A stretch of 64,000 nt of DNA from a virus: IMG/VR virus record IMGVR_UViG_3300020377_000001, positions 1 to 64,000 of that record, one strand, 5' to 3'. The notes under the pieces are model-generated. The model saw nothing but the letters and a program-made list of their open reading frames with translations. It was not told the DNA's origin and searched no databases. This document shows, piece by piece, positions 5,043 through 51,073 of this stretch; the stretch's first letter is position 1; each line of letters begins with the position of its first letter. The position numbers and the translations under genes were made by a program.

Positions 5043-5049
5043 TATGCTC

Positions 5050-14272: not shown

Positions 14273-14583
14273 TGCGATATCACTGAGGGGTTATCCCTAG
14301 CATGTCTTAGCAAAGCGTCGTACAGACCCCCGTTCACGCCCCCCTGGATAGATCTGGTGAGGTGAACCCCGTTGGAGTCCGACTGAACATGCAATACTGA
14401 TGAGTCGCTCAACATAAAGACATGTGAGCACGGTATGCTCCTGTCTTCAACCTTGGATAGGAAAAACCTAACTCGACCTAGGATTTCATCGCGCATGTCA
14501 TCTGTTGCATGCATCTGAACCTTAAACCAAAACCGCTGTACCAGACGAAGAAAGTCGCTAATTATGTGTATAAAGACCCTCAT
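14269..14583 (-). CDS. Hypothetical protein between recombinase and Dam methylase
   Basis: A 104-residue protein joined by ATGA overlaps to the genes on both sides, so it is translated as part of that operon. The N-terminal third is helical and basic or aromatic (FLRLVQRFWFKVQ); the rest has short strands. No domain was recognised and no membrane signal is seen. Confidence 0.58.
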   Translation of the reverse strand: MRVFIHIISDFLRLVQRFWFKVQMHATDDMRDEILGRVRFFLSKVEDRSIPCSHVFMLSDSSVLHVQSDSNGVHLTRSIQGGVNGGLYDALLRHARDNPSVISQ

Positions 14584-15296
14584 ACTAGTCCCTCCTGCAA
14601 TATCAGGCTTACCTTATCCTTGGCCTCGAGAACCTTGAGCCCCCCAGCGTAAATCTTGTGAATAGACATTTTCACAAAAGGCTTTCCTGCACGATTGACG
14701 TATCCCTTTTGGTTAACCTTATCACAGATCTTTTGGTACGACACCCCAGCGTCCCTCAGGCGCATAACCATCTTGAGAACCTTTGCTTCCTCTCGGTGGA
14801 CGTGCAGATTTCCATCCTCGTCAGCAAACATTCCCCAAGGGACCGTGCCGGCCCTCTTTCCGTTTCTTCGAAGCTGACGTAGCGCCGCTCGAGTTCTCAT
14901 TTTCGTTTTAGCGAGCTCAAACTCCGCGAAGGAATCCATGATTCGTCTCATGAGGACTGCGTTTGGATCGTCACTATGGTCGAGTCCATCTGCCGACATA
15001 ATCACTGCGCCGCGCTCCTTAACCAAGGTCTCAGCGGCAATGGCCTGAGAAACACCACGCGCAAGACGGTCACGCTTTGAGATGATGAGAATATCTCCCT
15101 CCCCTAGGTCATATATCGCATCCATCAGCACTTCGCGCTCATGAAGTGCAGCAGCGCCAGAGACACCCTTTTCAACATGAATTGCCTCTACAGAAAGACC
15201 CTTACGCTCGGCCATACCCCTGCACTCAAAGATCTGTGCATCTGGGCTAAGGTGTTGCTCATCGGTCGATACTCGTACGTAAATTACTGCACCCAT
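14580..15296 (-). CDS. Serine recombinase (resolvase/invertase family)
   Basis: A 238-residue site-specific recombinase. The catalytic Ser is residue 10 in YVRVSTDEQ, and the conserved Arg context ISKRDRLARG and the long E helix (AEFELAKTKMRTRAALRQLR) are present. A recombinase/HTH-like C-terminal region ends soon after. It is longer than simple resolvases (about 185 aa) and much shorter than large serine integrases (about 450 aa or more), so it may be a resolvase, invertase or reduced integrase. No attachment site could be found by eye. It follows an RHH-like gene by 1 bp. Confidence 0.85.
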   Translation of the reverse strand: MGAVIYVRVSTDEQHLSPDAQIFECRGMAERKGLSVEAIHVEKGVSGAAALHEREVLMDAIYDLGEGDILIISKRDRLARGVSQAIAAETLVKERGAVIMSADGLDHSDDPNAVLMRRIMDSFAEFELAKTKMRTRAALRQLRRNGKRAGTVPWGMFADEDGNLHVHREEAKVLKMVMRLRDAGVSYQKICDKVNQKGYVNRAGKPFVKMSIHKIYAGGLKVLEAKDKVSLILQEGLV

Positions 15297-22137: not shown

Positions 22138-22670
22138 TCACCCCCTATACGCGGGCGGGCGCACGCCCGCATCACCCGCGTCATGAGGAAATTTTCGGCA
22201 CTGCTCAAATGTTCAGCAATGAACGGATGTTCAGCACCAACTATTTGCCCACATGAGACCACATCGGATCACATTGTTGCCTCGAGAACCTACACGGGAT
22301 CACATCGGATCACATTGTCGCCTCGAGCACCTACACAGGATCACACAGGATCACACTATGGCACCGTGTAAGCGCACCGCCTACACACATGGCACCATTG
22401 CCACTATCTAAGGCTATTGGGTACGACCAAGGCGATCCAGTGCTCTACGGTGGCCAATATGTGAACAAAAGGCGCCCCACCTAGTAGAAAAATGTGATTT
22501 TTTTTAAGGTACTTTTATTAGTAAAAAGCCAATGATTGCAAACACTTAGAGTCCGTCGCTCTGTTTCTGTTGTTTGTTTTTGTGATCATGTGGGTTGTGT
22601 TCCGTTGTTTATGGTGTACCATGTAGGGGTAACCGCTGGAGAGTTACGGAACAAAACGAAGGGAAATCAA
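22138..22670. other. 533-bp divergent intergenic region
   Basis: No convincing gene. It separates the leftward promoter array from the rightward accessory block. It contains two ATGTTCAGCA direct repeats (22209-22218 and 22228-22237), the GGATCACA-type tandem repeats listed separately, and an A/T-rich stretch near 22490-22530 followed by the leader of the gene at 22671. A rightward promoter is not clear. An origin or control region is possible. Confidence 0.45.
22260..22357. repeat. Tandem iteron-like repeats (GGATCACA)
   Basis: Two imperfect copies of about 36-40 bp, each CGGATCACATTGT-YGCCTCGAG-MACCTACAC, followed by further GGATCACAC units, so GGATCACA or a near match occurs about five times in under 100 bp. 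Spacing is regular and the region is between divergent transcription units. This is the look of iterons or operator arrays. Confidence 0.6.
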
Positions 22671-28024: not shown

Positions 28025-28669
28025 GTGTCTTTTGAAATTAGATCGATAACCAGAACCGAGGCTTTGCCGTTATTTCAAAGGTATCACGGGTATAAGTCAA
28101 TGGGGGGCGTCTGTACATATCTATTCGGAGTATTAGAGCGCGGTTCTGTTGTCGCTGCGTTCGCCTGGCAGCCTCCAGCGGCAGGTTGTGCCAGATCTGT
28201 GCTTCCTGATGCCAGTTACGGTGTTTTATGCTTATCTAGAATGGTGGCTGTCCCAAAGGAAGAGCGTAATCTACGACACCTGTCAAAGCCTCTGCGATTT
28301 CAAGTGCGAAATTTAATAGATAGGGGGCGATGGCCTGCTTTGGTCACATTCTCAGATGAAGGCTTGGGGCACACAGGGCACGTATACAAGTGCTCTGGAT
28401 GGAAAAAAACCTCTCGAAAGAAGCGCTCACAGTTCATGGACAAAGAAGGCAGAAGGACTGCACCGTATAGTGACGGAAAAAAGGTAGAAGGGCTGATTAA
28501 GGTAGGGGCAGCCTATATTCAGCGGTGGGAGAAGCATGCTGTTCCACCTGAAGAGGCTGCAGGCTGGATTGAGGCAAACGGTTGGCGGCGTGAAGCGATC
28601 CCAGGAAAGTTCTGGTCATCAGGCAACCAGGCTTATCGGATGTCAAAACAGCAATCCATGCCATTTTAG
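28025..28669 (+). CDS. Mom-like DNA modification protein (GNAT-type)
   Basis: A 214-residue protein from GTG 28025 with AAAGGAG 6 bp upstream. It resembles the phage Mu Mom family, GNAT-fold enzymes that convert adenine in DNA to a bulky N6-modified base. Seen: YLFGVLERGSVVAAFAWQPP, then the core CLSRMVAVPKEERNL... LSKPLRF, and ALVTFSDEGLGHTGHVYKCSGW, matching the SRL/R and GH-G-YqA-W pattern of Mom proteins. It is 74 bp before a D12 adenine methylase. Simple acetyltransferase is the alternative. Confidence 0.65.
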   Translation: MSFEIRSITRTEALPLFQRYHGYKSMGGVCTYLFGVLERGSVVAAFAWQPPAAGCARSVLPDASYGVLCLSRMVAVPKEERNLRHLSKPLRFQVRNLIDRGRWPALVTFSDEGLGHTGHVYKCSGWKKTSRKKRSQFMDKEGRRTAPYSDGKKVEGLIKVGAAYIQRWEKHAVPPEEAAGWIEANGWRREAIPGKFWSSGNQAYRMSKQQSMPF

Positions 28670-28742
28670 CCTCTTGGAATCATTAGGAAAATCCGATCGA
28701 GTGTGGCATACAGATTCTTGTGCCGCTACAGAAAGGACCGAC

Positions 28743-29564
28743 ATGAAATACACAGGCAAAAGCGTTCTGCGATACCCGGGTGGCAAGACAAGGGCAGTCT
28801 CTCTGATTATGCCATTTCTTACTCGATTCGAGGCAAAGGTGCTGGTGTCCCCGTTTTTTGGTGGTGGGTCGATAGAGTTTGCTTGGGCTCAGCAAAAGCC
28901 GAGTTGTCGTGTTGAGGGGTATGATATCTATCCACCGCTTGTGGCGTTTTGGAGGGAGGCTCTGTCAAACCCAGGACCTCTAAGCAACAAGGTTGACGCC
29001 TATCGACCAATGGACAAGGATTTGTTCTTATCACTACAGAAGAAGCTCCCAAGCCTTTCTGGGCGGGATGCTGCTGCAGCGTTCTATGCCCTTAACAGGT
29101 CTAGCTTTTCGGGCGCCACAATGAGTGGAGGGATGTCTCCAGGCGTAAAGAGGTTTACAGAGAGCTCAATACAAAGACTTGCCGATTTCCATGCGCCGAA
29201 TGTGAAGGTTCGACTAGGCGACGTGTTTGACGTTGTCGAAGACCTCATTGACTCAGACCCTGAAGACTCGGTGATATATCTGGACCCCCCATACAAGATT
29301 GATGACTCGGCTTTATATGGACACAAAGGAAACGCACACCGAGGATTCGAGCACGAAAGGCTGGCCGAGCTAGTGCATAGACTGAACGGTAAAGGATTTC
29401 GTCTGGTTTTAAGTTACAATGACAGTGATTCAATACGAGCGCTGTATAGCCGCTATTTGATCACTCCGTTGTCTTGGTCATACGGGATGAAGAATGTGGC
29501 AGGAGGCTCGATGGGCTCATCTTCTGAGCTTTTAATTTTGTCGGAACCCTTCAGTACCCAATAA
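28743..29564 (+). CDS. D12-class N6-adenine DNA methyltransferase
   Basis: A 273-residue Dam-like enzyme from ATG 28743, with AAAGGA upstream; the frame above overlaps the Mom-like gene. SAM site: LRYPGGKTRA and SPFFGGGSIEFA. Catalytic motif DPPY (SVIYLDPPYKID), and ALNRSSFSGA typical of D12 enzymes. It methylates adenine N6. Together with the PF05869-like Dam at 13.7 kb the phage has two unrelated adenine methylases. Confidence 0.9.
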   Translation: MKYTGKSVLRYPGGKTRAVSLIMPFLTRFEAKVLVSPFFGGGSIEFAWAQQKPSCRVEGYDIYPPLVAFWREALSNPGPLSNKVDAYRPMDKDLFLSLQKKLPSLSGRDAAAAFYALNRSSFSGATMSGGMSPGVKRFTESSIQRLADFHAPNVKVRLGDVFDVVEDLIDSDPEDSVIYLDPPYKIDDSALYGHKGNAHRGFEHERLAELVHRLNGKGFRLVLSYNDSDSIRALYSRYLITPLSWSYGMKNVAGGSMGSSSELLILSEPFSTQ

Positions 29565-32787: not shown

Positions 32788-33452
32788 GAAGAGAAGAATA
32801 CTTTTTGGACAAGCTTGATGATGGTCTAATTCACCCGTCAATGCTGGTGAAGATGACGGAGCTTTGGCAAGAGACCCACGGCCTAGAGGCTGATGGGTAT
32901 TTTGGTCCGTTGACGGCAGAATCTTTTGCAGTGTCAGAGCCTACGACGATGCACCCTTTCGGGCTGTCTGTTCTTATGGCTGCGATTGCAGATCTAGGCA
33001 GGGGTGAAGAGGGTGGAAACAATAGTGGGGAGTACGTTGAGATGCTCCTCGGCAAGGAGTTTGACGGTGACGATGACAATGATGGGGCTTGGTGCGCCGC
33101 AGCGGTAACGCATTGGCTTTCAGTTGCTGCAGAGTCAGACAACGTCAGCTTGCAATTCAATACCAGCTTTGGCGCCAAGGCCCTGTATGGAAACATTTTG
33201 CGATCTGGGGTTGAGGCGTCTGAGCCCTGTGCAGGCGACATCGTTTGCTGGGACAGAGGCACCCCAGGCTCTTGGCAAGGGCACATTGGTGTAGTTGAAA
33301 GATTTGAGGGCGGCATCCTGCACACCATCGAGGGCAACAAGGGCGGGTTTCCAAGCAAGGTAAGAAGGTTTCGATATGATCTGTCAAAAGAATCCAGACT
33401 GGAAGGGTTCGCAAGGTTTACAGATGCAAGCGTGAGATCCAACGATGCCTAA
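32784..33452 (+). CDS. CHAP-domain endolysin with N-terminal wall-binding-like region
   Basis: A 222-residue amidase/endopeptidase. Residues about 15-55 (LWQETHGLEADGYFGPLTAESF) match a peptidoglycan-binding-like module. The CHAP core has the catalytic Cys in GAWCAAAVTHWL, then GDIVCWDRG and the catalytic His in GHIGVVE, followed by a strand ending IEGNKGG. No signal peptide, so export would need a holin. ATGA-coupled to the zinc-finger-like gene. Confidence 0.83.
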   Translation: MRREEYFLDKLDDGLIHPSMLVKMTELWQETHGLEADGYFGPLTAESFAVSEPTTMHPFGLSVLMAAIADLGRGEEGGNNSGEYVEMLLGKEFDGDDDNDGAWCAAAVTHWLSVAAESDNVSLQFNTSFGAKALYGNILRSGVEASEPCAGDIVCWDRGTPGSWQGHIGVVERFEGGILHTIEGNKGGFPSKVRRFRYDLSKESRLEGFARFTDASVRSNDA

Positions 33453-33651
33453 ATACAAGTATACATGCAGCGAATGCGGTAATAGCTTTCTTGTTGTTCA
33501 AGGTATCAATGATGAACCCGTATCTACTTGTTACTTGCGAGTAGATGAGTCCTCCGATAGCGACGAAAGATGTACGGGGTCTGTCCGCAGAGTCCCCGCG
33601 TCTGTGGGTTTCACGTTAAAAGGGAACGGGTGGTTTAAAGATGGCTACTAA
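33445..33651 (+). CDS. FmdB-type zinc ribbon protein
   Basis: A 68-residue protein of the FmdB regulatory family: MPKYKYTCSECGNSFLVVQ, then a second Cys pair (C-x-...-RCTG) and the terminal GFTLKGNGWFKDGY typical of the family. Zinc-binding, possibly a transcription cofactor. Overlaps both neighbours by 8-11 bp. Confidence 0.8.
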   Translation: MPKYKYTCSECGNSFLVVQGINDEPVSTCYLRVDESSDSDERCTGSVRRVPASVGFTLKGNGWFKDGY

Positions 33652-34258
33652 GGGTAAGGTTATTTGGAGCGGAACCAGGGAGCTCGAGACGTCATTGGTA
33701 AAGATCTCAGACCTAAACCCAGATCCCGACAATCTCAACTTCCACCCAGAAGTAAGTTACGAGGTTCTCTCTCAAGTCATCTCTCGGTTTGGGCAACATA
33801 AGCCAATTACAGTACACAATGGGACGGTGATTTGCGGAAATGGCGTGTTTGAGGCTTGTAAGCGACTGAAGTTTACCCATGTGGCAATCAGCACCTTTGA
33901 GGGGACCGATGACGAAGCAAAGGCCCTGGCGATTGCAGACAACAAGACAAAGTCCTTGAGCTACTTCAATTCCGACGTGGGAAGCATTGTTCAAGATTTG
34001 ATGCCCACATTTAGCCCAGAGGAGCTCGGAGGCTGGGGTAGCCTCGACATCGACATACCTGACATAGATCTTGATGAGGACGATGAGTTGGACGAGCTCA
34101 TGGAGTCTCCACCAGAGCAAAAGACTGTGAGGTTGACGTCTGAGCAGTGGGAGGTGGTAGGGTCTGCGATTCAAAAGCTTAGGGAGATCAACGGTCAGGC
34201 GATCTCCGAGGGGAGATGTATCGAATTGATATCAGCGGACTATCTATCAGGTTCTTGA
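33641..34258 (+). CDS. ParB/Srx-fold nuclease-like domain protein
   Basis: A 205-residue protein. The ParB-like domain (about 15-115) shows LVKISDLNPDPDNLNFHP, SRFGQHKPITVHNGTVICGN, FEACKRL and DDEAKALAIADNKT. An acidic linker (DIDLDEDDELDELMES) and a helical tail follow. In phages such domains occur in DNA-modifying or partition-like proteins. It lacks the central HTH of true ParB. It lies 370 bp from the FtsZ-like gene, which makes a DNA-organising role tempting but unproven. Confidence 0.8.
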   Translation: MATKGKVIWSGTRELETSLVKISDLNPDPDNLNFHPEVSYEVLSQVISRFGQHKPITVHNGTVICGNGVFEACKRLKFTHVAISTFEGTDDEAKALAIADNKTKSLSYFNSDVGSIVQDLMPTFSPEELGGWGSLDIDIPDIDLDEDDELDELMESPPEQKTVRLTSEQWEVVGSAIQKLREINGQAISEGRCIELISADYLSGS

Positions 34259-34365
34259 TTTGTGTCGATTCGATTGTAAGAATACTTTGCCGATAGTGTC
34301 GTTTTTCGCCAATATATAGGTACATCCAACGATAGAATCGGTGGTGAGAGTCTTAAGGTGTCATT

Positions 34366-34629
34366 TTGAGTTTCGAGCATATCAATTCTGGTTTAGCTAT
34401 TCTTGTCGCCGTCTGTGGCGCTGTTTGGTCAATTGGAAGCGTCTCATCGAAAGCGGACGTTGCGCTAGAGAAGGCTGCATCGTCTGAAGAGAGTATGGTT
34501 CGTCTCGATGACAAGCTAGATCGACTGATTGAAGAGGTTGGAAAGATTAAGACCAATGTCGCGGTCGTCAGAGCAAAGGTCGAATCCATCGATTCTGTCG
34601 TTACCCCTATTAAGAACTCAGAAGACTAG
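34366..34629 (+). CDS. Membrane-anchored coiled-coil protein (holin/spanin-like)
   Basis: An 87-residue protein, TTG start at 34366, with TAAGGT upstream. An N-terminal membrane segment (GLAILVAVCGAVWSIGSV) is followed by a coiled coil (ESMVRLDDKLDRLIEEVGKI). This is the layout of i-spanins and XhlA-like lysis proteins. It is downstream of the CHAP endolysin and converges with the FtsZ-like gene, overlapping by 4 bp. Confidence 0.55.
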   Translation: MSFEHINSGLAILVAVCGAVWSIGSVSSKADVALEKAASSEESMVRLDDKLDRLIEEVGKIKTNVAVVRAKVESIDSVVTPIKNSED

Positions 34630-35663
34630 AGTTCTTGTATTACCTTTTTCTCTGGCCCCTTTATTCCCCGTGATATGCAATAGATAACAGGCTCAGATAT
34701 GGTTGGGTCTTCGTAGATGCCTTTATGAAGATAGCCTCCTCGAAGTTGCGTGAGAACCATCTGCAGGCCGGATTCAAGGTTTTCAAAGAACATCTCGTTG
34801 GTCTCAAAGACCTCTGTGGGAACCTTAATGATTATGCCAAAACTCTGTTGTGACACGTCCGATTCGGAGTGTGAAAACAGGGTGCTCGAAAACAACTGAA
34901 AAACACAGTTCTTGATGGACTGCGCTGAGCAGTCTGCATTGATTGATACTTTCCCAAACGAAACGCAGCCGGGCTTGAGCATAATTGTCTCGAGGTCAGA
35001 CTTGTCCATACACTCGAAGTCGCTGGGTGTTTGGGTTATGGTATTAAACTCCTCAAACAGTCCCGCTACGTGCTCGTTGGCGAGACTCCACATGTTCTTC
35101 ATTGTCGCTTTTGGTATGACATTCTTGATTCTGCGATTGTTTAGAATCATCAAAGGTGAGATTTGTCCATCGCCGCACATTTTGCAAACAGCCTGCAGGA
35201 GGTCTTTGGCGTTCTTTTTAACAATCGTACTAGAGCACTCAAGCTTTCTGGGGCTCGTAATAATCAAGCCCACAGAGTCCGGCTTTTTTCTTCCCTCAGA
35301 CATGAACTTCTTGGACAGTTCAATTAAGGGTATTGCGCCACCCGTGCCAGTGCCACCACCGGCTCCAGCGCAAACGATGATTCTGTCAACGTCCCCAAAG
35401 AACTCCTCCATCATCAACTCAATCATGTCTTCGGAGTCGTTGACGGCCTGCTCTGCAATCTTAGGCTGTTTGCCAGCACCGTCTTCAGACTTCCCAACTA
35501 TAAGCCTTCTTTCGATGCCTACATTTAATGCTTCCAGATCGATTCTGGCAGTATTCAGGTAAATGCTCTCGTAGCCCAGGTCTGCAAAGGATTTTGCTAT
35601 CTTGCATCCCCCTTGACCAATGCCAACAAACCCAACATTGAATGATCTTTTTGGCGTACCCAT
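34626..35663 (-). CDS. FtsZ/tubulin-superfamily GTPase
   Basis: A 345-residue protein from ATG 35663, with AAGGAG 5 bp upstream. It carries the tubulin/FtsZ landmarks in order: T1 loop VGIGQGGC (13-20), T2-like LNTAR (36-40), T3-like GKSEDGAGKQPKIAEQ, the signature GGGTGTG (102-108), and a T7-like catalytic loop MDKSDLETIM (219-228) with both Asp residues. All GTP-binding and catalytic elements seem intact, so it probably forms filaments. Phage relatives by analogy are PhuZ and TubZ, used for positioning or segregating DNA. Co-transcribed with the HTH-phosphoesterase. Confidence 0.82.
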   Translation of the reverse strand: MGTPKRSFNVGFVGIGQGGCKIAKSFADLGYESIYLNTARIDLEALNVGIERRLIVGKSEDGAGKQPKIAEQAVNDSEDMIELMMEEFFGDVDRIIVCAGAGGGTGTGGAIPLIELSKKFMSEGRKKPDSVGLIITSPRKLECSSTIVKKNAKDLLQAVCKMCGDGQISPLMILNNRRIKNVIPKATMKNMWSLANEHVAGLFEEFNTITQTPSDFECMDKSDLETIMLKPGCVSFGKVSINADCSAQSIKNCVFQLFSSTLFSHSESDVSQQSFGIIIKVPTEVFETNEMFFENLESGLQMVLTQLRGGYLHKGIYEDPTISEPVIYCISRGIKGPEKKVIQEL

Positions 35664-35665
35664 GA

Positions 35666-36997
35666 CTACTCCTTCGAACTTGGCTCTATATCTCTTCCCA
35701 CATAAACTTTCCCGTTGTAAACACATTTACCGTCGTTGATGTGCAGCAACTGCATATGGTTTACGCCATCAGAGTCTCGAATCACTAAGCCGATCCCGTG
35801 TTGCCAATCTTGGTCTGGTCTACCCTTCCCAGTTGGAACAAGTCTCGGTTTGACAGAGCACAGGGTGCCAGGACTCATGGCTGAAATTGTGACATGCTCA
35901 TCCTGCCCATTCTTTCCTGGGACAGTTCTTGTCGAGCAGGCGATCTCTCTTCGGTGTATGTGTCCAACAATTTGACTGTGTCTTGCTCCAGACAAAATTG
36001 AGCTGACCGTCTGCCCCCCTTTGGGTCTAACGATGTGTCCGTGATGAACTTTAATATCGTTAAATAGCCAGTAGACCTTCCCGTATGGCTTAATGTAAGA
36101 AATGCCCAGCTTGTCGAGGCAAAGCAATCTTTCCACCGATAGCATTGGTGGACCCAGAATGTCATCGATTGGACGAAGTACTGCAGCCTCTTGAACATTC
36201 TGCAGTTGCTTCGACAGCCTAAGCTCGTGATTGCCTTCGCAGAGAGTGACCTTGCCGTTGGTTGTACCTACTAAAACCCTTAGCCATTCACCGAGTTCTT
36301 GTAGCGCTGGCTGGATCAGGTACTTTGCGTCCGGTTCAAGAGGAAAGGTGGATAACCCTCCAAAGTCGATCATGTCACCAAGTAACACGATTTCGTCAGG
36401 CTGAATGTCCGCGCTGATTTGCGTTACGACATCACATGCTCGCCGATCGTGCATTGGTATTAGCTCTTGAATCACTTTACCTGTTTTCTCGCAGGTTCTC
36501 TTGACTGACCTAAAACCATGCTGGCTGTCGGGCACAATCAAGGCAATTTTTTTAGCATTCTTTACATGCTTTTTACCTTTTGGCTTTTTTAGGTTTCTAC
36601 CGAGCGTTATGGGCTTGATCCAGTAGTCTGGTTTGCGCTCTAGCCAAGCCTTGACCTGCCACATTTCTGTTGGACCTTCTTTGCCCATCTGGTCCCATTT
36701 GTTGACCACCTTTTTTACAACAACCCACTCGTCGAGGTCCACATTCGCCTCGATCATGAGTTGCTCTACGCTTCTAACACCCTTTCCAGTCAGAACTCGA
36801 CGTCCCGATTCTGAGGTTTCTTGAATCTTGTTGTTTTCAGAAAAAAGTAGTCCGTTCTGTTTTGCCCACTTTAAAATCCGATGAAGCCTGCTTCTGCTAA
36901 TGCCTAAGGATTCAGCAGCAGCGGTCTTGCTGCCGTGCTCCTCAACCGCTTTTTTTATTTGCTTGAGCTCATCGGGAGAGTTTGTTGGTTTTCGCAT
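35666..36997 (-). CDS. Metallophosphoesterase with N-terminal HTH
   Basis: A 443-residue protein from ATG 36997, with GGAGGG upstream. Residues about 1-45 are a helix-turn-helix (KTAAAESLGISRSRLHRIL). The calcineurin-like domain has all metal motifs: PDSQHG, LLGDMID, EGNHELR, VHHGH and GHIHRRE. Fusion of a DNA-binding HTH to a phosphoesterase is found in several phages. It may be a site-directed nuclease or phosphatase. It ends 2 bp before the FtsZ-like start, so the two are translated from one transcript. Confidence 0.82.
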   Translation of the reverse strand: MRKPTNSPDELKQIKKAVEEHGSKTAAAESLGISRSRLHRILKWAKQNGLLFSENNKIQETSESGRRVLTGKGVRSVEQLMIEANVDLDEWVVVKKVVNKWDQMGKEGPTEMWQVKAWLERKPDYWIKPITLGRNLKKPKGKKHVKNAKKIALIVPDSQHGFRSVKRTCEKTGKVIQELIPMHDRRACDVVTQISADIQPDEIVLLGDMIDFGGLSTFPLEPDAKYLIQPALQELGEWLRVLVGTTNGKVTLCEGNHELRLSKQLQNVQEAAVLRPIDDILGPPMLSVERLLCLDKLGISYIKPYGKVYWLFNDIKVHHGHIVRPKGGQTVSSILSGARHSQIVGHIHRREIACSTRTVPGKNGQDEHVTISAMSPGTLCSVKPRLVPTGKGRPDQDWQHGIGLVIRDSDGVNHMQLLHINDGKCVYNGKVYVGRDIEPSSKE

Positions 36998-37070
36998 ACA
37001 CCCTCCGCGTATCTGTATGTAAATGTAGGTGATCGAACCAATGCTTTGCAAAGTGTTCTCTATGAATTAG

Positions 37071-37099
37071 TTGAAACATCGTGTAAAAGTGGTCTTAAT
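37071..37099 (+). promoter_or_regulatory. Candidate promoter of the structural block
   Basis: TTGAAA (37071-37076), 17 bp, CTTAAT (37094-37099): 5/6 and 4/6 sigma70 matches, 32 bp before ATG 37132, in the gap divergent from the phosphoesterase gene. Confidence 0.45.
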
Positions 37100-37131
37100 C
37101 TTGGTAGACGCCACATATAAAGGAGCTTAAG

Positions 37132-37797
37132 ATGGCAAAAAAAGATCGACACGTAGTGCCAGAAACCCTCGGTTCATTCAATTTGGCGCCGCCAACAATA
37201 CCCAACATGACGGCGGAAGAGCGTAAGGCGTTTATGGGCGGCGAAGGCAAGTCTGATGACAATGAGCTTGCACAGGTTATAAACGTGACAATGACTACTA
37301 ATCAGGTTGATATCCCGCAAGGCATGGGGATTAGTCCATATAAGATTGGGCCGTTCGATATTAGCCCACCTGTTGCCATAGAGTGGGCGGAGAGCATTCT
37401 TCGACACAGCACAAACAGGGTGACGGCACGAGGGCCGGATCGAAGGTTGGGTGAAACAGGTAAGCCAACACTGATGATCGTTCAGCCGGCGCAGCCAACA
37501 AACTTCAAAATGAAGGAGTGGAAAGATCCCAACACAAATCGGATCTACACCATTAACACATATAGACCAAAGTTTGGGACTCTTAGACCAGATGGCCGAC
37601 CAATGTACCATAGCGAGGAACAAGCGTTTTTCGTTATCAGCAAGATGCTAACCGTCGAGGCGATTCAGAGATATGTTCAGGACTTTGACAATCGTCCGAA
37701 TGTTGTAAATTTCGCTCACACGGTGATAAACTATCGACAGGAGCAACAACTTGCTAGAGTTGGTGTAACTTCAAGAGTAAGCAGGGCGGTGAACTAA
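37132..37797 (+). CDS. Structural-module protein, unknown
   Basis: A 221-residue protein with AAAGGAG before ATG 37132, first gene of the head-tail block and one-base overlapped with the connector gene. It is polar with an N-terminal low-complexity stretch. Its core (ISPYKIGPFDISPPVAIEWAE) and the C-terminal EAIQRYVQDFDNRPNVVNF resemble virion proteins, but no family is recognised. A head decoration, minor head or connector-associated role is inferred from position. Confidence 0.55.
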   Translation: MAKKDRHVVPETLGSFNLAPPTIPNMTAEERKAFMGGEGKSDDNELAQVINVTMTTNQVDIPQGMGISPYKIGPFDISPPVAIEWAESILRHSTNRVTARGPDRRLGETGKPTLMIVQPAQPTNFKMKEWKDPNTNRIYTINTYRPKFGTLRPDGRPMYHSEEQAFFVISKMLTVEAIQRYVQDFDNRPNVVNFAHTVINYRQEQQLARVGVTSRVSRAVN

Positions 37798-38528
37798 TGC
37801 CTTTGATTGGTACCCAGGCAGAGCAGAGAGCGTTTTTACGTCGTTCGGTTGGGCACCAGCAGGACACCGCTTTGGTTACAGACGATCTTCTCGATGATTG
37901 CCTTAAAGATTCGTTGCGTGAGGTTAACCTGACATTCCCGCTTGTCGGTGTTGGCTTTTTTGAAACTGTGGCAGACCAGCAGAAGTATGACAATGTGCTC
38001 CCAGCAGGCTCATACAGGCTACGGAGGGCATTTTGGCCTAACGAAAGCACCCAGAGGCTGCCTGACAGCTTTCCTGTGCATCTGGACCCCATTGTGGAGT
38101 CGGGGACGCAGTACTACAGCAGCAAGTACACCTTCAGCCCCGCGGCCACGCTTGCAATGGAGCGTCACTCGGAATACCTCAAGAGATGGTTTGAGGGAGG
38201 GGCAAAGATCTTTCTGCCTGGGACCGTATACCTGATGCCAGTCCCATCGGAGGCAGGCAAGAAGGTTTACTTTACTTTTTCATCTCCCCGCTTCGCAGGA
38301 CCAGCGGACGTTTTGGATCAATACGGTCCAGCGTACTTCGCTTGGGCAAAGAAGTGTCTTCATGAAGCCCTCGCCGCTGGCCGTGGCGCTGTTGAGAGCA
38401 TTACCTCTCCAGCAGGAGTGACGATGCGGACTGGAGCCCGGAGCAGCCACCTCGAGCTCGCAAATCGGGAGCACAAAAGGTGGCTTGACCTTATACCACC
38501 AATCGCGACCGCCAGAAGCTGGCCTTAG
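37797..38528 (+). CDS. Probable head-tail connector/adaptor
   Basis: A 243-residue protein. The N-terminal helical region (LVTDDLLDDCLKDSLREVNLTFP) followed by a beta-rich part is typical of head-completion adaptors. The order just before neck genes is right. There is no strong sequence signature; assignment is by position and fold impression. Confidence 0.5.
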   Translation: MPLIGTQAEQRAFLRRSVGHQQDTALVTDDLLDDCLKDSLREVNLTFPLVGVGFFETVADQQKYDNVLPAGSYRLRRAFWPNESTQRLPDSFPVHLDPIVESGTQYYSSKYTFSPAATLAMERHSEYLKRWFEGGAKIFLPGTVYLMPVPSEAGKKVYFTFSSPRFAGPADVLDQYGPAYFAWAKKCLHEALAAGRGAVESITSPAGVTMRTGARSSHLELANREHKRWLDLIPPIATARSWP

Positions 38529-38534
38529 TCCAAA

Positions 38535-40793
38535 ATGTCTGGCAACGTGTTGCCTCTGCAGCAGAGGCCGCCAAGGGGCACAATTACGCTAATAGGTCCT
38601 GACCAAGACATGATTGATGTCGCAGATGCAGGCAGCGGATTAACCTGCGTGCACGTTCTGTCTGAATCGGTGGACACTTCGCGTGTCTGCACAGATGCGT
38701 TTGCGTTTGTTGATGAGTATTTGGACCATGGTTGGTTGGATTCGCAGATTAAGTCTGATCCCAGGTGGAATGAGAAGAGATATAAGCACGGTCATTCATC
38801 AAATTCGATTCATTTAAAAAGCCCCATTCCCTCTACGCCAAACTCGTTGTCTGTCTCCATACTCGTAAACCTAGAAAAGGGATCGGCCGAAGGCGTAAGA
38901 TGTATAGAGTCCATCAAAGAGAGGACCATCTATCCATACAGAAACCTAGTTATTACATGCGATTCGTCTGATGACCTTGTTTACTCCACAATAAAGGCAC
39001 AGGAGGACAGGCGAGACCTTGTTGAGGAGATAAGCAGCAACATATCAGACCTCGACAGGATGATAGTCGGCGTTAGCACCGCGTTTTCAAGGGGCGCAGA
39101 TATGGTCTGCGTAGTGGATGAGGGATGCTTGGTCACCCATGGGTGGCTAACAAGGATGGTTCAGTGTCAATACCTCACGGAGTCTTCTGCTGTTTCGCCA
39201 ATGATGAACGAGTCGTTTGACATGCCTCTACCAATGGGGTTGTCACCAAAGTGCGGATCTCACAACCTGTCTGGACCTCATAGCTATCTAGATGTCGCTC
39301 GGGGTCTTTCCGTTATCAATCCAGACTTCCCCCCTCTAACGATGATGTCTGACGACTGCGTAATGTTCACCGCAGAGTCTTGGTCTGAGAACGGATTTAG
39401 CGTTGGAGAGACAAATCGTTGGACGGCCCTGGCGTCGATGTGGGCATCAATCAGAGAGTCGGGCGGAAGGTGTCTTGTTGCAGATCATTCTTATGTATTC
39501 AAAAGGAATGACCCCAAGACGACAAGAATAGGCAATCGCTTGAGGGCTGGGCTTTCTTCGCTGTATTCAGACCTTATAGACTCCGATAGCAAGTGGTCCG
39601 CCACATCGACCACAAACAGGCATAGGGCTCATGTCTCCAGCGTCAAGCCCGCATCTGTGCCTGTGGCAATGACCATGACAAGCATTGGACACTGGGGCGG
39701 CATCATCGCGCCGTTGAGGATTTGTCAGGAGCTAAACGAGCTCGGCTTCTCGGCGTCTGCCGCATACTTGAAGACTTCTGGTGAAGCCTCGATGCCAAGA
39801 GAGTGGTGCCTTCCGTTCACTCCAAGAAGATTTAACACGATGCAGTCTCTCGAGGATTGGAAAGTCTCTATGGGGTGGGATCGAGGGTTTGTTGTTTCGT
39901 CTCATGTTTTCTCTGCATCAATAACTGAATCTGTGAAGTCTGTCTGCCCTGAGGTTTCCACTGTTTCGTTTTGGCAGGATCGAGAAGACCTGTTCGACGG
40001 GTCGGAAAGAAACACTCAGATGAAAAAGTCTCATGTGGATCGATTTCTGGAGTCTGACTTTCATGTCTTTAACTCGTCTTGGGTCTCGGATTCCGTTTTG
40101 ACCGACTTTGGCTCCCTTGGCAAGAATGCGACGATACCGATAGGTGTAGATACCTTAATGTTCAGGCCGAGCGTTCGACAGAAGGGTGGTAAGGTCAGAA
40201 TTATATCCATGTGGAGACCTCACACGTCCAGAAGGGGACACGAGCACCTAATGGCTCTTTATAGGCTCATAAGGCGTGAGTACGGAAACACTGTGTCGTT
40301 AGAGGTGTATGGTGAGAAATCCCCAGGACATGAAATACACTCGATCGTTGATTGTCATCACGGGTGGTTAAACAGGCGTGAACTGTCTCAGGTTGTGCCG
40401 TCTTGCGACATTGTTGTGGAGCCAAGCCAGTTCCAGGGCTTTGGCATGCCTGGGCTAGAGGCGATGTCCTCTGGGTGTGCCTTGGTCAGCACCGATAATA
40501 TGGGAATACATGAGTATGGTGTTCATGGGGAGAACTGTCTCATAGGGGGTTCGATAGAGGCAATGCATGGTCACACTAAAAGGCTGATCGATGATTCGGT
40601 CCTTCGAGAGTCTATTAGCCACAATGGAAGGGTACGCGCACTCAACTTCGACTGGGCAACGGTCGGCGCCAGATGGGGCATGTTTTTGCTTTCTGCAGAC
40701 AAAGACTTGGGCAGATCCTATAGGCAGTCAACCCAGAGGATACTTGATAATATAAGCAAGGTCCGAGAGAAGTGGACCGGCCCTGCTGAGTAA
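38535..40793 (+). CDS. Bifunctional-looking glycosyltransferase (GT2-like + GT4-like)
   Basis: A 752-residue protein. The N-terminal half has a GT-A pattern (LSVSILVNLEKGSAEG, ITCDSSDD, a DxD-like VVDEG) as in GT2 enzymes. The C-terminal half (about 530-740) is a GT-B fold with GVDTLMFRP, ISMWRPHTSRRGHEHL, VVEPSQFQGFGMPGLEAMSS with the E-x7-E sugar-nucleotide motif, and TDNMGIHEYGVHGENCL. It would move sugars from nucleotide donors. Its place inside the virion operon suggests modification of capsid or tail proteins. Confidence 0.82.
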   Translation: MSGNVLPLQQRPPRGTITLIGPDQDMIDVADAGSGLTCVHVLSESVDTSRVCTDAFAFVDEYLDHGWLDSQIKSDPRWNEKRYKHGHSSNSIHLKSPIPSTPNSLSVSILVNLEKGSAEGVRCIESIKERTIYPYRNLVITCDSSDDLVYSTIKAQEDRRDLVEEISSNISDLDRMIVGVSTAFSRGADMVCVVDEGCLVTHGWLTRMVQCQYLTESSAVSPMMNESFDMPLPMGLSPKCGSHNLSGPHSYLDVARGLSVINPDFPPLTMMSDDCVMFTAESWSENGFSVGETNRWTALASMWASIRESGGRCLVADHSYVFKRNDPKTTRIGNRLRAGLSSLYSDLIDSDSKWSATSTTNRHRAHVSSVKPASVPVAMTMTSIGHWGGIIAPLRICQELNELGFSASAAYLKTSGEASMPREWCLPFTPRRFNTMQSLEDWKVSMGWDRGFVVSSHVFSASITESVKSVCPEVSTVSFWQDREDLFDGSERNTQMKKSHVDRFLESDFHVFNSSWVSDSVLTDFGSLGKNATIPIGVDTLMFRPSVRQKGGKVRIISMWRPHTSRRGHEHLMALYRLIRREYGNTVSLEVYGEKSPGHEIHSIVDCHHGWLNRRELSQVVPSCDIVVEPSQFQGFGMPGLEAMSSGCALVSTDNMGIHEYGVHGENCLIGGSIEAMHGHTKRLIDDSVLRESISHNGRVRALNFDWATVGARWGMFLLSADKDLGRSYRQSTQRILDNISKVREKWTGPAE

Positions 40794-44431: not shown

Positions 44432-44509
44432 GTTTTGCTCCTAGTGAAGTGTGTGGTTTAGTCTTAGCATATACTGGGGGCGCTGTGAATCAACTTTGTG
44501 AGGTTTTCT

Positions 44510-47500
44510 ATGGCAAGTAGAACTAATAACTTGACCCTTGTTTTGGGTGTCGCGGATAGAAACTTTTCCGCAGGTCTTAAGAAGGCTCAGACTAACCTCG
44601 CGACGTTTGCGGCTGGATTTAGCCGCGCATTCGGAAAGAAGAAAAGGGGTGGTGTCGACGGGATGGCGTCGAGCATCCTTAATCTTGCCACCGCCATCGA
44701 GAGGCTCAATGCCGCAGTTGCGAAAAGCCCTCTTCATGGATTTTCTGCGAAGGTGAGAAGAACATCGGTTGCAATGAACGGCGCCCGAAAGGCCACTCGC
44801 AGGCTCAATCGTAGGCTTTCTAGAACTCGTGCTGCTGCCGCTGCTGCAGGAAAGGGCGCAGACAGGGCGGCGCTTAGCATGGGTAGACTAAGGAAGTCTA
44901 CAGCAAGAACCGCAGAGGCGATTCGGAGTACTGCCGTCAATCTCAAGTTTATGATTGCCACAATGGTTGGTGGAGCAGCGGCAATAGGGGTCGTTAAGTT
45001 TGGCGCCGACTTTGAGAAGAGGCTTGGTGAAATAGACACCCTTCTCGATGCGAACACGGTCAGCATACAAAGGTATCAAGAGCAGTTAATCAAGCTGTCC
45101 CAGTCTACGCCAAAAACACTTATGGACCTGTCTGGTGCACTCTATCAGATTATATCTGCAGGCATACCAGCGGTCGAGGGCGCAGGTGGCGCATTCGACA
45201 TATTGACACAATCACAGAAGCTTGCTGTTGGTTCGATTTCAGAAACAAAGCAGTCGGCAGACCTTCTAATCACAACGATGGCTGCATTCAAGCACGAGAA
45301 CCTTGGTTCCGCAGAGGCAGCAGACAAGCTCACAGCGATCTATCAAAAGGGTAGGACGACTATACCTCAACTTAGTAAGGCGTTTGGTAGGGCTGCTCCG
45401 ATCGCGGCGCAATTTGGCGTTAGTCTAGATGAGTTGGGTGGGTTGTTGATTGGGTTGACCCGCGCAGGTCTGAACACAAACGAGGCCGTGACAGGCATTC
45501 GAGCAATGATGAGCAGTCTTGCAAAGCCAACCAATAAAACTCGCGAGTTGCTTGAGTTGTTGAATATTGAGTTTGGTGAAAACGCGATCCAGACTAAGGG
45601 ATTTAGCGGAGTCTTGGAAGATCTGATAGCAAAGACCGGTGGATCGGTTGAAGTCCTCTCACAACTGTTCCCAAACATTCGAGCGTTGCTTCCGGCGGTT
45701 ATTGCTGCTGGTGATGGGTTTGGTGGGTTTCAGGCTAATGTTGATAGCGTCACCGACTCTATCGGTGCGTCAGATCAGGCTGTACTTAAGCAGCAGAAGA
45801 GGTTCTTCTTCGCCGCTGAGTTGCTAAAATCAAATTTTCAGGGCGTCATTCAACAGATTGCTGAAAAGACGCTGCCTGGGCTTACGATTATGCTCTCTCG
45901 ATTGGGTGGATTTCTATCAGATAACAGGGAAGAGATTGTATCGTTTGGTGTCCAGGCGATGAAATTTTTTGGCATGATTGGTTCTGCTGGGGGGCAGGCT
46001 CTTTTCAAGACGCTGAAGACTATTATTGAATTCCTGAGTAGCGGGTTCGGAAAAGCAGTCGCGTTGATTGCGGTTGTGAGCAAGCTTGGGCTCGTCTTCT
46101 TTGGCATGGGTAAGGCCGCTGTGTTGTCTCTGGGTAAAGCCTTACATTTATTTTTCCCCGCTGTGTTCACTGAGGCGGGGGCTTTGGCTGCGGGCGCATT
46201 CAATGGCGCATTCGAGAGTGCCTCCAACTCAAGGATGGGTCGTTTTTTTGGTGGTGCTGGCCCGTTTATAAGGGGAATCCTTGGGTTTCTCGGGCCGCTT
46301 GCCATTGGCGCGATGATTGCCAAGGCATTATTTGACGGATTTAGTGCGGCTGCAGATGAGGAGGCGGCGCAGGCTGGGGAAGAGCTCGCAAGAAAGCTCA
46401 AAGAGGCTGTTCAGAAGGCTGTTTCGGAAGCAGCCGCAGAGTTTAGAAGGCTGCAAGGTATTGACGCCAAGGATGTGGAGAAGACTCAGGAAAAAGTCGA
46501 CCGAGGCACGCTTTTTGTAGATGAAGGTGAGGGCATCGGCAAAGCAAGGACACTTCAAAAAGACCTTGACCTTATGCTTAGAAGCGCAATCAACAAAAGG
46601 AGGATGGACTTAATTGAGGCAAAGAAGAAAGAACTGAAGGTCACCGTCCTCACCGCAAAGCAGGCTGGAGAGGTAGAGAACGCACTGCAGGAGGAGAATG
46701 CACAAATAAGGACTCGGGTTGTTGCAGAGCATGCAGAGAAGCATATGAAAATCATTGAGGCTAGAGCCGAAAAGGATGAAAAGCTGTCTAAAGCGGTTAC
46801 AGAGAACCTAAATAAAGACATAGAACGCCAAAACAAACTCCTGCAAGACGCGAAGTCTAAACAGGAAAAGGGTTTTGATGCGGCGACAACCCATGTTGGC
46901 AGGCAGGTGGCAAAAATGTTTACAGGCTCAAGGGAAGAAATGCTGGGTATGGCTCGACGCTTTAGAACGATTCTGGCAGGGGAGACCGAAGCAGAGCGAG
47001 CAGAGGCTGAAAAGGTTATCAATGAATTCATTGAGAAGATAAGTAAGTTGGAGAGTGATAGGGCAGCCAAAGACCAAGACGTAAAAAATCAAGCTAAATT
47101 CATTGCAGGTATGAATGCGGAACGGCGAAGTGGAGTAGATTCGGTAACCGGAAAACCGTTTACCGAAGAAAGCGCTAGGCGATTTGATAAAGGTATAGAG
47201 AGAAACATTGAATTCCAAAAAACGCAACAAGAAGACTTAAGAGTCTTAGAGACCATGTTGGCTAAAAGGCGGCAGGAGTTTGCGGCTGAATTTCCTAGAT
47301 TGCAGGGATCCTTTCTTAAAATGGCTAATGCATTGGCTCAACAAGTTATGCCAGATCAGATTGAGAAAACTACCGCTCAGATCACAGAATCGTTTGGTGA
47401 ACAGTTCACTCAGATCGCCAAGCAGATCTCTCAAGATACCGATTTTGGAAAAATCGATCTTATTGACGAAAGTACCGTTAACAAGGTTGCTGAAGCAAGG

Positions 47501-50500
47501 GCAGAACTGAAAAAGCTTGAAACAATTAAGGCAGCGATTCAGGGAGGGGATTTTACAGGTTTTTTCACAACATCATACTGGGCAAGCCTGGGCAAAGGGG
47601 TTCGAGAACTGGGTCGTGACATAATAAACCTTTCATTTATTCCAGAGCGATTAAGGCAGCTCGGACAGATAGGCGCAAGAGAAGCTGCGAAGACGAAGAC
47701 AAAAGATAAGCGTGATAAGGATAAAGAGCCTAAGGTCAGAAAGCCGCCTAAAGCAAATTTTGATTCTCTCCTTAACAGACTTCGCAAGCAAAGGATTCGC
47801 CTAGAGGACAAGCTCCAGAAGATGGCGATTAAGACGCTCAAGATTGCCAATCAGCGTTTTCAGGTTGAGTCAAAGATCAATGCAACAGTTAAGGATCGGT
47901 CAGACACCGGCGAATTCAACGCTGAAAACAAAAGGCTTCTACAGGAGGCTTTAAAGATTCGTCAAGATGCGGACATGAAGTCTCTAAACGATCGTCATAA
48001 AGCAGAGATGGACAACCTTAATCGTGAGATTGAAACAAGGAGAAAGGCGCACGAAGAGCAGAGGCGGAAGAATAGGGAAGACTTTGAGAAGGAGACCAAG
48101 AAGCGGTTCGGTCGTTCTGCCAAAAACAAGGTCATCAGGGGTGATATCGAAAATGAATTGAGGCTGATTGACGATGCGACAGAGTCTGAGATCAGTGAGG
48201 CGGCAAAGAAAAGAATCAAGGGTCGTATGAAGGAAACAGACCCAAAAAAGCAGGAAGAGGCGCTTCAAGTCCTGTTGGAAAAGCGCAGGTCTATGCTTGT
48301 TGATGAAGGCAAGCTTGGTGAGGAGATTGCTAAAGAGCGCAGGGCTCGAGAGGAAAAATTTCAGAGCGAAAGAAGGCTTAAAGAGTTACAGCATCATCAA
48401 CAGCAGGAGAAGTTGGAAAAAGACTTTTTTAAGAGGGGGCAAGATCACTTAAAGCGGCAGGAGTCTGAAAGAAAGGCGGCCAGGGATCGAGCGTTTGACG
48501 CTTTAAAGAGGAACCTTGAACTCTCGGGTGGAGATTTCCAAGTAGGCGCATTGAAGGCGCAGCAGGAGCTTCAAAGGGAGTCTAATCATCTTGCCGAGCA
48601 GCATAGGTCAATTCAGGACCGACTTAATCAGATATTAAAAAATCGGACAAGGATGGATGGTTTGCATAACGCAGACCTGAAAGAGCAGAACGAGCTTCTT
48701 AGACAGCAGGCTGAGATAAGGAGAAAGCAGGCCGAGACGAAGCGGGCGCAGGAGTTTGCCCAGAAGTTTGGGGCAGGGGCGGGTGGTCAGCAAGGGTCTG
48801 TTATGCGTCTAGCGAGGCGCGGACTCGAGTTTCTTGGCGTCCCATCCTTCGATACGAAAGATTCAGCGAAGATTTTCGATCAAGCTACGGCAATGTCTGA
48901 GGCTTTTAAGAACGAAATCGCTGCAGCGTCCAAGGATCCTGAAACGAAGAAGAGGCTCGAAGCAATGGGTCTTTCTGCAGACCCCAAGAAGCGGGCAGCG
49001 TTTGCCAGAAAGGAGGCGACCGGCTCGGCGATTGAAATGGGTCCTGGCATGGAAAAGGAGATGCGGGCGTTTGCTCTCGCCGAGAAGTTCACAGGTAGCG
49101 ACATTGCGAAAGCGGGACTGGATGTCGCCATCCCAGGCATGGGCGCCCAAATTGACAAGTTAAAGCAAGAGCTTTTCGACAATGAGCCTCACATGAAGAT
49201 GTTTGAGGCTGCTGCTGAGGCCTCAGCAGAGTTTGCCAAGGGTAACGTGGGCGGACTGTTCGAGATGGTAAACAAGTTTGCCCAGAAGTTCTCTGATGAG
49301 TTGGTGAATCAGGTCTCTGGTGTCGCAACCAAGCTTGGTAGCTTGATAGGTGATTCGTTTGGAAAGTTTGCCGGAGATGTTTTCGGTAAGACTGTGGGTC
49401 CACTTTTGAACGCATCCTTGTCGTTCTTTGCAGAACATGTTGCAGGCAACATAGCGAGTGCGCTCGGCTCCTCGATGTCTATCATGACGGGTGGTGTCGC
49501 GGACGCATTTGGCTCTGTGAGCTCAGAGGACCGTCTCCAGTCCGTACAGATGGAGGCCAGGGATGCTGCGAAGAGAAACCTTTCTGAGGGCAATGAGGAT
49601 GTCAGGAGCGCCGCAGGGAAGCGTGTGGCTGAATTAGATCGAGAGATTGCCTCAACTACAGACGCACAGAAAAAGCAAGACCTTATCAATCAGCGCAGAG
49701 AGGTTCTTGCCACCATGGAGGAGCAACTTCTCGAAAACAAAAGGCAGTTTGCAGATTCGGAGCGTCAAAGAGTAGAAGACGAGCGTGAAAACAACCCGAT
49801 GAATCAGCTAGACAATGCCTTTAGCAGATCTATTGAAATGGCAGACAAGTTGGTTTTCGATCTTCCAAACTTGGCGTCTGCGGCAATCGACGGACTGATT
49901 CAAAACTTGCCTGTCTTGTTGGATAAGATGGCCGAGGGTCTGATGAGGACGGTTGACGCTATCGCTGACAAGATTCCCACTCTGCTGACCACCTTCGTCA
50001 CATCAATCATAAACGTCATCCCCAAGCTTGCTTCAACATTAGGAAAGCTTATTCCAGCTTTGATCAAGGGGATCCTCAAGGCGCTAACAGAGATATTGAA
50101 AAACCTTGGTTCAATTATAGGACCCCTGGTGGAGATGGCTGTTACAGCCATAATCGATAGTCTAATAGAGCTCATAACTCAGTTGCCAGACATAGCGGTT
50201 GCTTTGGTTGAGGGCGTCATTACCGCTGTGGAGGTGCTTGCCGAGCAGGCGCCAAGGTTAATCTCTGCGCTTATTACAGCCTTGCCAATGTTGACGCTGG
50301 CTTTAATTTCAGCCATTCCAAGAATACTGGATGCGATAATTATGGGTCTTCCAGACATCTTTGTTGCCTTCGGCAGGGGCATGTTCAGGGCGGCCATAGA
50401 CTTTGGAAAGATGATCGGAAGGACGTTCACAAGGTTCGCAAGCTTTCAGAAGATTACCGACTCACCGGCTGGGCTTGGTGCGGGTCTCGGAGCCGCGATA

Positions 50501-51073
50501 GGGTTTGGTGCCTCTTTCATTCCTGGGATTGGGCTTGGTGCTACCGCTTTAAGTATCGGGGGCGCACTTTTAGGTGGAGGCATTGGCTCACTCTTTAAGC
50601 ATGATGGTGCTGTCGTTAAGAAAGGTCAAAGAAACCCTGCGATGGCATCACTTATGAGAGGTCTCGGTGCGGCACAGTATGCGGATGGTGGCATGGTGGA
50701 AATGATGAGTAGATCTCTTTCGTCAAACCCTCTTAGCGGGATGAAGCGTGCTGTCGATGATGTCCCAGCAGTTCTTCAGGCTGGCGAGGCTGTCTTAAAT
50801 CGTCAGGCGACAGCGGTCCTTGGGGAGGACACAATCAACATGCTTAACGCTGGAGGTGCGCTCCAGGCAGGAGACACGAGCGTGACCCTCAACATCGTCC
50901 CGAATGCTAATGGTGTTAAGAATGCTGCGGCAGCACTGCTTCCTATGTTAATCGGTGGTGTTAACGCAGAAGTTGACCGTCCAGGATCTAAGCTAAGGTC
51001 AGCTATTAACTCGTCATCTGGTCGTCCTATTGGTAGTATGGGCGTGCCCATGTCGAAGAGAATTAAAGTATAG
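44510..51073 (+). CDS. Tape measure protein
   Basis: A 2187-residue tail-length ruler from ATG 44510 with GAGG upstream. The N-terminal region holds a TP901-type core (GADFEKRLGEI, LSQSTPKTLMDLSGALYQI, LGGLLIGLTRAGLNTNEAVTGI). Long coiled coils occupy the middle. Near the C-terminus is a hydrophobic repeat region (residues about 1790-1970, LP-x-LI/A-x-x-P pattern) and a typical ending AVLNRQATAVLGEDTINML. At about 0.15 nm per residue the tail would be roughly 330 nm long, which is very long. Confidence 0.9.
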   Translation: MASRTNNLTLVLGVADRNFSAGLKKAQTNLATFAAGFSRAFGKKKRGGVDGMASSILNLATAIERLNAAVAKSPLHGFSAKVRRTSVAMNGARKATRRLNRRLSRTRAAAAAAGKGADRAALSMGRLRKSTARTAEAIRSTAVNLKFMIATMVGGAAAIGVVKFGADFEKRLGEIDTLLDANTVSIQRYQEQLIKLSQSTPKTLMDLSGALYQIISAGIPAVEGAGGAFDILTQSQKLAVGSISETKQSADLLITTMAAFKHENLGSAEAADKLTAIYQKGRTTIPQLSKAFGRAAPIAAQFGVSLDELGGLLIGLTRAGLNTNEAVTGIRAMMSSLAKPTNKTRELLELLNIEFGENAIQTKGFSGVLEDLIAKTGGSVEVLSQLFPNIRALLPAVIAAGDGFGGFQANVDSVTDSIGASDQAVLKQQKRFFFAAELLKSNFQGVIQQIAEKTLPGLTIMLSRLGGFLSDNREEIVSFGVQAMKFFGMIGSAGGQALFKTLKTIIEFLSSGFGKAVALIAVVSKLGLVFFGMGKAAVLSLGKALHLFFPAVFTEAGALAAGAFNGAFESASNSRMGRFFGGAGPFIRGILGFLGPLAIGAMIAKALFDGFSAAADEEAAQAGEELARKLKEAVQKAVSEAAAEFRRLQGIDAKDVEKTQEKVDRGTLFVDEGEGIGKARTLQKDLDLMLRSAINKRRMDLIEAKKKELKVTVLTAKQAGEVENALQEENAQIRTRVVAEHAEKHMKIIEARAEKDEKLSKAVTENLNKDIERQNKLLQDAKSKQEKGFDAATTHVGRQVAKMFTGSREEMLGMARRFRTILAGETEAERAEAEKVINEFIEKISKLESDRAAKDQDVKNQAKFIAGMNAERRSGVDSVTGKPFTEESARRFDKGIERNIEFQKTQQEDLRVLETMLAKRRQEFAAEFPRLQGSFLKMANALAQQVMPDQIEKTTAQITESFGEQFTQIAKQISQDTDFGKIDLIDESTVNKVAEARAELKKLETIKAAIQGGDFTGFFTTSYWASLGKGVRELGRDIINLSFIPERLRQLGQIGAREAAKTKTKDKRDKDKEPKVRKPPKANFDSLLNRLRKQRIRLEDKLQKMAIKTLKIANQRFQVESKINATVKDRSDTGEFNAENKRLLQEALKIRQDADMKSLNDRHKAEMDNLNREIETRRKAHEEQRRKNREDFEKETKKRFGRSAKNKVIRGDIENELRLIDDATESEISEAAKKRIKGRMKETDPKKQEEALQVLLEKRRSMLVDEGKLGEEIAKERRAREEKFQSERRLKELQHHQQQEKLEKDFFKRGQDHLKRQESERKAARDRAFDALKRNLELSGGDFQVGALKAQQELQRESNHLAEQHRSIQDRLNQILKNRTRMDGLHNADLKEQNELLRQQAEIRRKQAETKRAQEFAQKFGAGAGGQQGSVMRLARRGLEFLGVPSFDTKDSAKIFDQATAMSEAFKNEIAAASKDPETKKRLEAMGLSADPKKRAAFARKEATGSAIEMGPGMEKEMRAFALAEKFTGSDIAKAGLDVAIPGMGAQIDKLKQELFDNEPHMKMFEAAAEASAEFAKGNVGGLFEMVNKFAQKFSDELVNQVSGVATKLGSLIGDSFGKFAGDVFGKTVGPLLNASLSFFAEHVAGNIASALGSSMSIMTGGVADAFGSVSSEDRLQSVQMEARDAAKRNLSEGNEDVRSAAGKRVAELDREIASTTDAQKKQDLINQRREVLATMEEQLLENKRQFADSERQRVEDERENNPMNQLDNAFSRSIEMADKLVFDLPNLASAAIDGLIQNLPVLLDKMAEGLMRTVDAIADKIPTLLTTFVTSIINVIPKLASTLGKLIPALIKGILKALTEILKNLGSIIGPLVEMAVTAIIDSLIELITQLPDIAVALVEGVITAVEVLAEQAPRLISALITALPMLTLALISAIPRILDAIIMGLPDIFVAFGRGMFRAAIDFGKMIGRTFTRFASFQKITDSPAGLGAGLGAAIGFGASFIPGIGLGATALSIGGALLGGGIGSLFKHDGAVVKKGQRNPAMASLMRGLGAAQYADGGMVEMMSRSLSSNPLSGMKRAVDDVPAVLQAGEAVLNRQATAVLGEDTINMLNAGGALQAGDTSVTLNIVPNANGVKNAAAALLPMLIGGVNAEVDRPGSKLRSAINSSSGRPIGSMGVPMSKRIKV

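Follow-up and report, generated by a model that had tools for sequence, protein, structure and literature searches.

Two kinds of phage carry known tubulins: jumbo phages that form a nucleus encode PhuZ, and plasmid-like prophages encode TubZ. TubZ/RepX, found on Bacillus plasmids and in phage c-st, is part of the type III partition system TubZRC. The plasmid prophage c-st uses TubZ (PMC8026635), and the C-terminal tail of TubZ is the binding site for TubR and TubY (PMC5322520). PhuZ of the Chimalliviridae, such as phiKZ and 201phi2-1, moves DNA and capsids and sets a precedent for a phage tubulin in the lytic cycle (PMC13282480). It carries H11 and an acidic knuckle tail, and its filaments need this C-terminal knuckle (PMC3678025). 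A review describes two distinct tubulin representatives in jumbo phages (PMC7824862).

The tubulin gene described here lies in a 64,000-nucleotide stretch of an IMG/VR virus record, which we refer to as the window (Table 1). The open reading frame and the length of 345 residues given in a first-pass annotation were confirmed, as was the HTH-metallophosphoesterase gene that precedes it. An alternative, longer start would yield 366 residues, but an AAGGAG five bases 5' of the ATG favours the shorter protein. The tubulin gene starts 2 bp past the stop of the phosphoesterase gene. Because of this short gap, and because the ribosome-binding site lies inside the upstream gene, the two proteins are very probably co-translated from a minus-strand operon of their own, as judged from the sequence. 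Promoter and terminator scans returned chance level only. Beyond the phosphoesterase side of the operon lie plus-strand genes, then a glycosyltransferase and then tail genes. With plus-strand genes on both flanks, the two-gene operon is thus an inset against the surrounding late genes. The glycosyltransferase has 752 residues and is encoded within the head-tail gene region (38535-40793, plus strand). The 87-residue protein encoded next to the tubulin has a hydropathy of 1.94 at residue 9 and weak DUF948, XhlA and spanin-like matches only.

Table 1. Features at and around the tubulin operon, in window coordinates
Feature	Coordinates	Strand	Evidence or remark
CHAP-domain endolysin or tail lysozyme, 222 aa	32784..33452	+	Pfam CHAP 5e-08
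Generic phage gene for a 205-aa protein with a ParB-like N-terminal domain	33641..34258	+	phrog_620 3.3e-21; no Pfam match
Membrane + coiled-coil protein, 87 aa, TTG start	34366..34629	+	Convergent; overlaps tubulin stop
Tail-less TubZ-like tubulin GTPase, 345 aa	34626..35663	-	Pfam Tubulin, PDB 4ei7, AlphaFold2, Foldseek, motifs
AAGGAG ribosome-binding site of the tubulin gene, within the 3' end of the phosphoesterase gene	35669..35674	-	Sequence
HTH-metallophosphoesterase, 443 aa	35666..36997	-	PHROG 20266 9.3e-30, PHROG 221 2.9e-27; Pfam Metallophos + HTH_8

The tubulin matches Pfam Tubulin above its cut-off (E=4.8e-10). Searched by sequence against solved structures, it finds TubZ/RepX first (4ei7, 1.8e-17), with FtsZ at about 1e-9, and a profile of four phage tubulin sequences also ranks TubZ first. 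Its TubZ-like_C Pfam match lies below the cut-off of that family. An AlphaFold2 model, based on a shallow alignment of 13 sequences with FtsZ among them, has the full tubulin fold (pLDDT 87.6, pTM 0.89), and Foldseek places TubZ closest to it (TM 0.78-0.81). Profile search and predicted monomer structure thus both bear out the proposal that this is a member of the tubulin/FtsZ superfamily, and the assignment, although computational, is firm. The T1-T7 loops are intact: T1 is GIGQGGC (residues 14-20), T3 is GAGK (62-65), T4 is GGGTGTG (102-108), T6 is represented by N176, and the catalytic aspartates of T7 are D220 and D223, which are kept in 73 of 73 aligned sequences. By sequence, the protein should bind and hydrolyse GTP. 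The signature loops noticed in the first-pass annotation, namely GGGTGTG, GQGGC and a T7-like loop with both aspartates, could therefore be placed, and its view that the protein is an apparently active phage tubulin outside the jumbo phages agrees with these loops and with a genome of about 75.1 kb.

The closest described proteins differ from the window tubulin in several respects. TubZ and the phage tubulins are split from FtsZ in the tree with support of 100/100, and the curated FtsZ profile TIGR00065 gives 1.3e-19 and 70.8 bits, far below its cut-off of 295.2; an identity as FtsZ was rejected on both grounds. PhuZ is likewise a phage-encoded tubulin, for which a lytic-cycle role is plausible, but identity with PhuZ was also rejected. 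The PhuZ profile phrog_4733, to which phiKZ and 201phi2-1 score 1e-106 or better, gives E=0.36 with the window protein, and the tree places PhuZ on the opposite side (64/82). PhuZ phages are moreover jumbo phages with a nucleus, in contrast to the 75-kb genome here. TubZ/RepX is the best match in both sequence and fold (4ei7, 2xka), with the same T-loops and on the same side of the tree, yet identity reaches 27-33% at best. Among 50,697 phage records the sole match was a weak one, to gp138 of Bacillus phage G (phrog_17961, 9e-6), which groups with a TubR-bearing element (100/99) and has kept a tail of 65 residues. The window tubulin and its phage relatives form one branch with support of 71/69, or 88/57 in another tree, and keeping a narrower phage tubulin set together was not rejected (p-AU 0.40). 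Membership in this phage branch is likely from the sequence comparisons. A 271-residue protein of a T4-type phage (L001) was considered as further kin but is doubtful, with no Pfam tubulin match and a very long branch.

The virus record has 75,141 bases with an exact 55-bp terminal overlap, which indicates a complete circular genome of about 75.1 kb. Genes that were not found are therefore taken to be truly lacking, not lost to incomplete sequence. The 80 terminase relatives included one close kin (G001, terminase 89% identical) and yielded no tubulin; G001 has the same gene order across the join, which also speaks for completeness, and the tubulin region is outside its coverage. Among the gene products of the record are DnaB- and DnaC-like proteins and RecE- and Sak-like recombination proteins. 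Relatives of the T4-type capsid, portal and protease are encoded together with a phrog_38 terminase and a 2191-residue tape measure (G000; L003:7073-11699, window 44498-51073), an unusual combination for a 75-kb phage. A Mom-like DNA modification protein and three DNA methyltransferases (28025-29564, plus strand; 4173-5447 and 13697-14272, minus strand) suggest a heavy investment in DNA modification.

In this complete genome the partners of TubZ were searched for. In the plasmids examined, the TubZ gene is directly preceded by one of some 100-130 codons, which was taken as TubR, and nine of these genes were made into a profile that recovers 8 of 9 at E<1e-4 in a left-out test. The profile found no match in the phage genome (best 0.26), which confirms the earlier remark that no TubR gene is seen. 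A second TubR profile matched neither the phage genome nor the 170-190 kb contigs of the related family described below; it is the weaker test, as its positive controls were its own build sequences and a held-out Alicyclobacillus record was missed. No repeat array, such as tubC iterons would form, was detected around the operon (33400-38600). The window tubulin also ends only 12 residues past the last core strand, compared with 6-22 residues in phage relatives, 77-96 in plasmid TubZs and 65 in phage G. Because the tail is the site for TubR and TubY, the adaptor and the part that binds it are missing together.

In IMG/VR, matches were found in L108 (E=4e-39), L126 and L127/L128. The nine tubulins together made too heterogeneous an alignment to serve as a scan query. 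An FtsZ-containing profile was biased to FtsZ and gave way to a phage-only one. The scan built on L108 and L126 yielded 93 loci, L108 itself included. Of these, 80 were kept, most of them from one family that is at least 86% identical internally and about 34% identical at best to the window tubulin. A single-protein scan of genome contigs found no relatives, nor did viral-contig scans queried with the phosphoesterase or a neighbouring structural protein. The tubulins of L134-L212, L108 and L126 share 29-34% identity with the window tubulin, and all are tail-less, TubR-less and have kept the DxxD of T7. They differ from it in that their genes lie in a terminase-portal cassette and have no phosphoesterase beside them. 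In the large family (about 90 IMG/VR loci, L134-L212, for example L135:5995-7128) the tubulin gene is directly upstream of terminase and portal. The gene order, conserved across the 81 loci analysed, is a membrane and coiled-coil protein (62 loci), the tubulin, a signal or membrane protein (74), two unknowns, the terminase large subunit (74) and the portal (63). The T4 loop reads GVSGGSGGGT in 70 of 72 compared proteins, DxxD is invariant, and the naive dN/dS is 0.03; the family is under strong purifying selection. The modelled L135 protein has the same tubulin fold, nearest to TubZ. The tail-less, TubR-less relatives occur in phages that carry T4-type head genes. Among phage records, only phage G matches the large family, and weakly. 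Two upstream genes of other relatives were noted. L126 encodes, 26 bp before its tubulin gene, a 269-residue protein with an N-terminal Hfq/LSm domain (L126:5084-5893; PF17209, 3e-11), and L128 a 124-residue protein that resembles, by eye, an HTH protein of the Fis type, is without a profile match and might conceivably act as an adaptor (L128:5193-5567).

Taken as a whole, the data are best read, with a probability of roughly 0.45, as an active, filament-forming member of the TubZ lineage that functions independently of the TubR-centromere adaptor and organises the infected cell in lytic growth. The subunits would bind GTP and stack head to tail, D220 and D223 completing the active site of the neighbouring subunit. 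The filaments might then position replicating DNA, packaging sites or capsids during the lytic cycle, possibly tethered to the membrane through small membrane proteins such as those encoded beside the tubulin gene in relatives. The HTH-metallophosphoesterase would be co-translated, a working partnership not being required. Several findings argue for this lytic filament: sequence family and fold are nearest to TubZ with both T7 aspartates conserved throughout, TubR and tail are both absent from a complete genome, the gene in relatives sits with terminase and portal under strong constraint, and PhuZ offers a precedent. On the other hand, the window tubulin groups with these relatives at moderate support only, its own gene is outside the packaging cassette and on the opposite strand, and the module it belongs to has a separate upstream region, which also fits expression in lysogeny. 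As PhuZ filaments need the knuckle, a tail-less protein may also polymerise differently.

The role proposed in the first-pass annotation, DNA positioning or the organisation of replication, may apply. The context in relatives, with terminase, portal and membrane proteins, points to packaging and virion assembly at least as much. Tentatively, these tubulins could make up a third phage tubulin class, neither TubZRC nor PhuZ, that is tail-less and adaptor-less, forms filaments, occurs in ordinary-sized T4-headed phages and positions capsids or packaging sites with the help of small membrane proteins; the window protein would be a divergent member of it.

The main rival, which we regard as rather unlikely, is that the tubulin is a TubZ-like type III partition motor of a plasmid-like prophage, in which TubR has been replaced, as the protein that binds a centromere, by the phosphoesterase through its HTH, by the ParB-like protein or by some other protein, and the tubulin would segregate the prophage circle. 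The nearest characterised relatives are indeed plasmid TubZs, c-st is a plasmid prophage that uses one, the tubulin operon opposes the late genes, and the genome circularises and encodes a small serine recombinase. This recombinase of 238 residues (14580-15296, minus strand) has a full catalytic domain and a truncated Recombinase domain, and is also present in G001. A 41-bp repeat in three copies (GGATCACATTGTCGCCTCGAG...) lies at window positions 22248-22370, within a mostly non-coding gap close to the GC-skew minimum, and is a candidate replication origin or centromere; its iteron-like character would suit a partition system. These iterons are, however, 12 kb away with no repeats beside the operon, TubR is absent by profile, the tubulin is without the adaptor-binding tail, and no repressor was recognised. 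Its phage relatives are found in virion gene cassettes, and HTH-phosphoesterases are widespread without a tubulin.

The neighbouring genes also bear on a further suggestion, that the tubulin and the HTH-metallophosphoesterase form a dedicated two-protein system, for example with the latter regulating filament assembly as a nucleotide sensor or while bound to DNA. The spacing of 2 bp and the ribosome-binding site inside the upstream gene imply co-translation, as this suggestion would have it. The phosphoesterase has an HTH at about residues 11-44 and the metal motifs DSQ, GDMIDF, GNHE, HHGH and GHIH, and in an alignment it shares an N-terminal HTH-like region and a DxQ metal motif with actinophage homologues from Microbacterium phage ISF9 and Clavibacter phage CN1A. 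It is an ordinary phage member of phrog_221/phrog_20266 except for the tubulin gene directly downstream. Its matches extend to 917 phage records, and the architecture is also present in phages without any tubulin. The pair was seen only in the window phage, and none of the tubulin relatives examined has a phosphoesterase gene adjoining. The ParB-fold protein noted at about 370 bp is present, 367 bp from the tubulin gene and on the opposite strand. Both neighbours are generic phage genes, and the operon indicates co-expression and not partnership. A dedicated system with either protein is accordingly not supported, and that with the phosphoesterase appears improbable.

Interference with the host, in which the phage protein blocks or hijacks FtsZ and division is halted during infection, is very improbable, for the two proteins share a superfamily and a weak TIGR00065 match but are split 100/100 in the tree, where the window tubulin sides with TubZ, and the window protein has no FtsZ-type C-terminal tail and a fully conserved catalytic machinery that would be superfluous for a simple inhibitor. 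Phage-encoded inhibitors of FtsZ described so far are small peptides.

In the literature searched, to which the 2025 survey of PhuZ phages (PMC12625630) did not belong, a tail-less, TubR-less tubulin family in a packaging cassette is not described. Since related proteins are encoded next to the packaging genes of dozens of further uncultivated phages, cytoskeletons may occur in more phages, and act in other ways, than PhuZ and TubZ would lead one to expect. The joint absence of TubR and tail, together with about 90 loci fixed beside terminase and portal, makes a testable case for tubulin filaments in assembly or packaging without a nucleus, and the tail-less core is a natural test of the role of the C-terminal tail in tubulin-like filaments.
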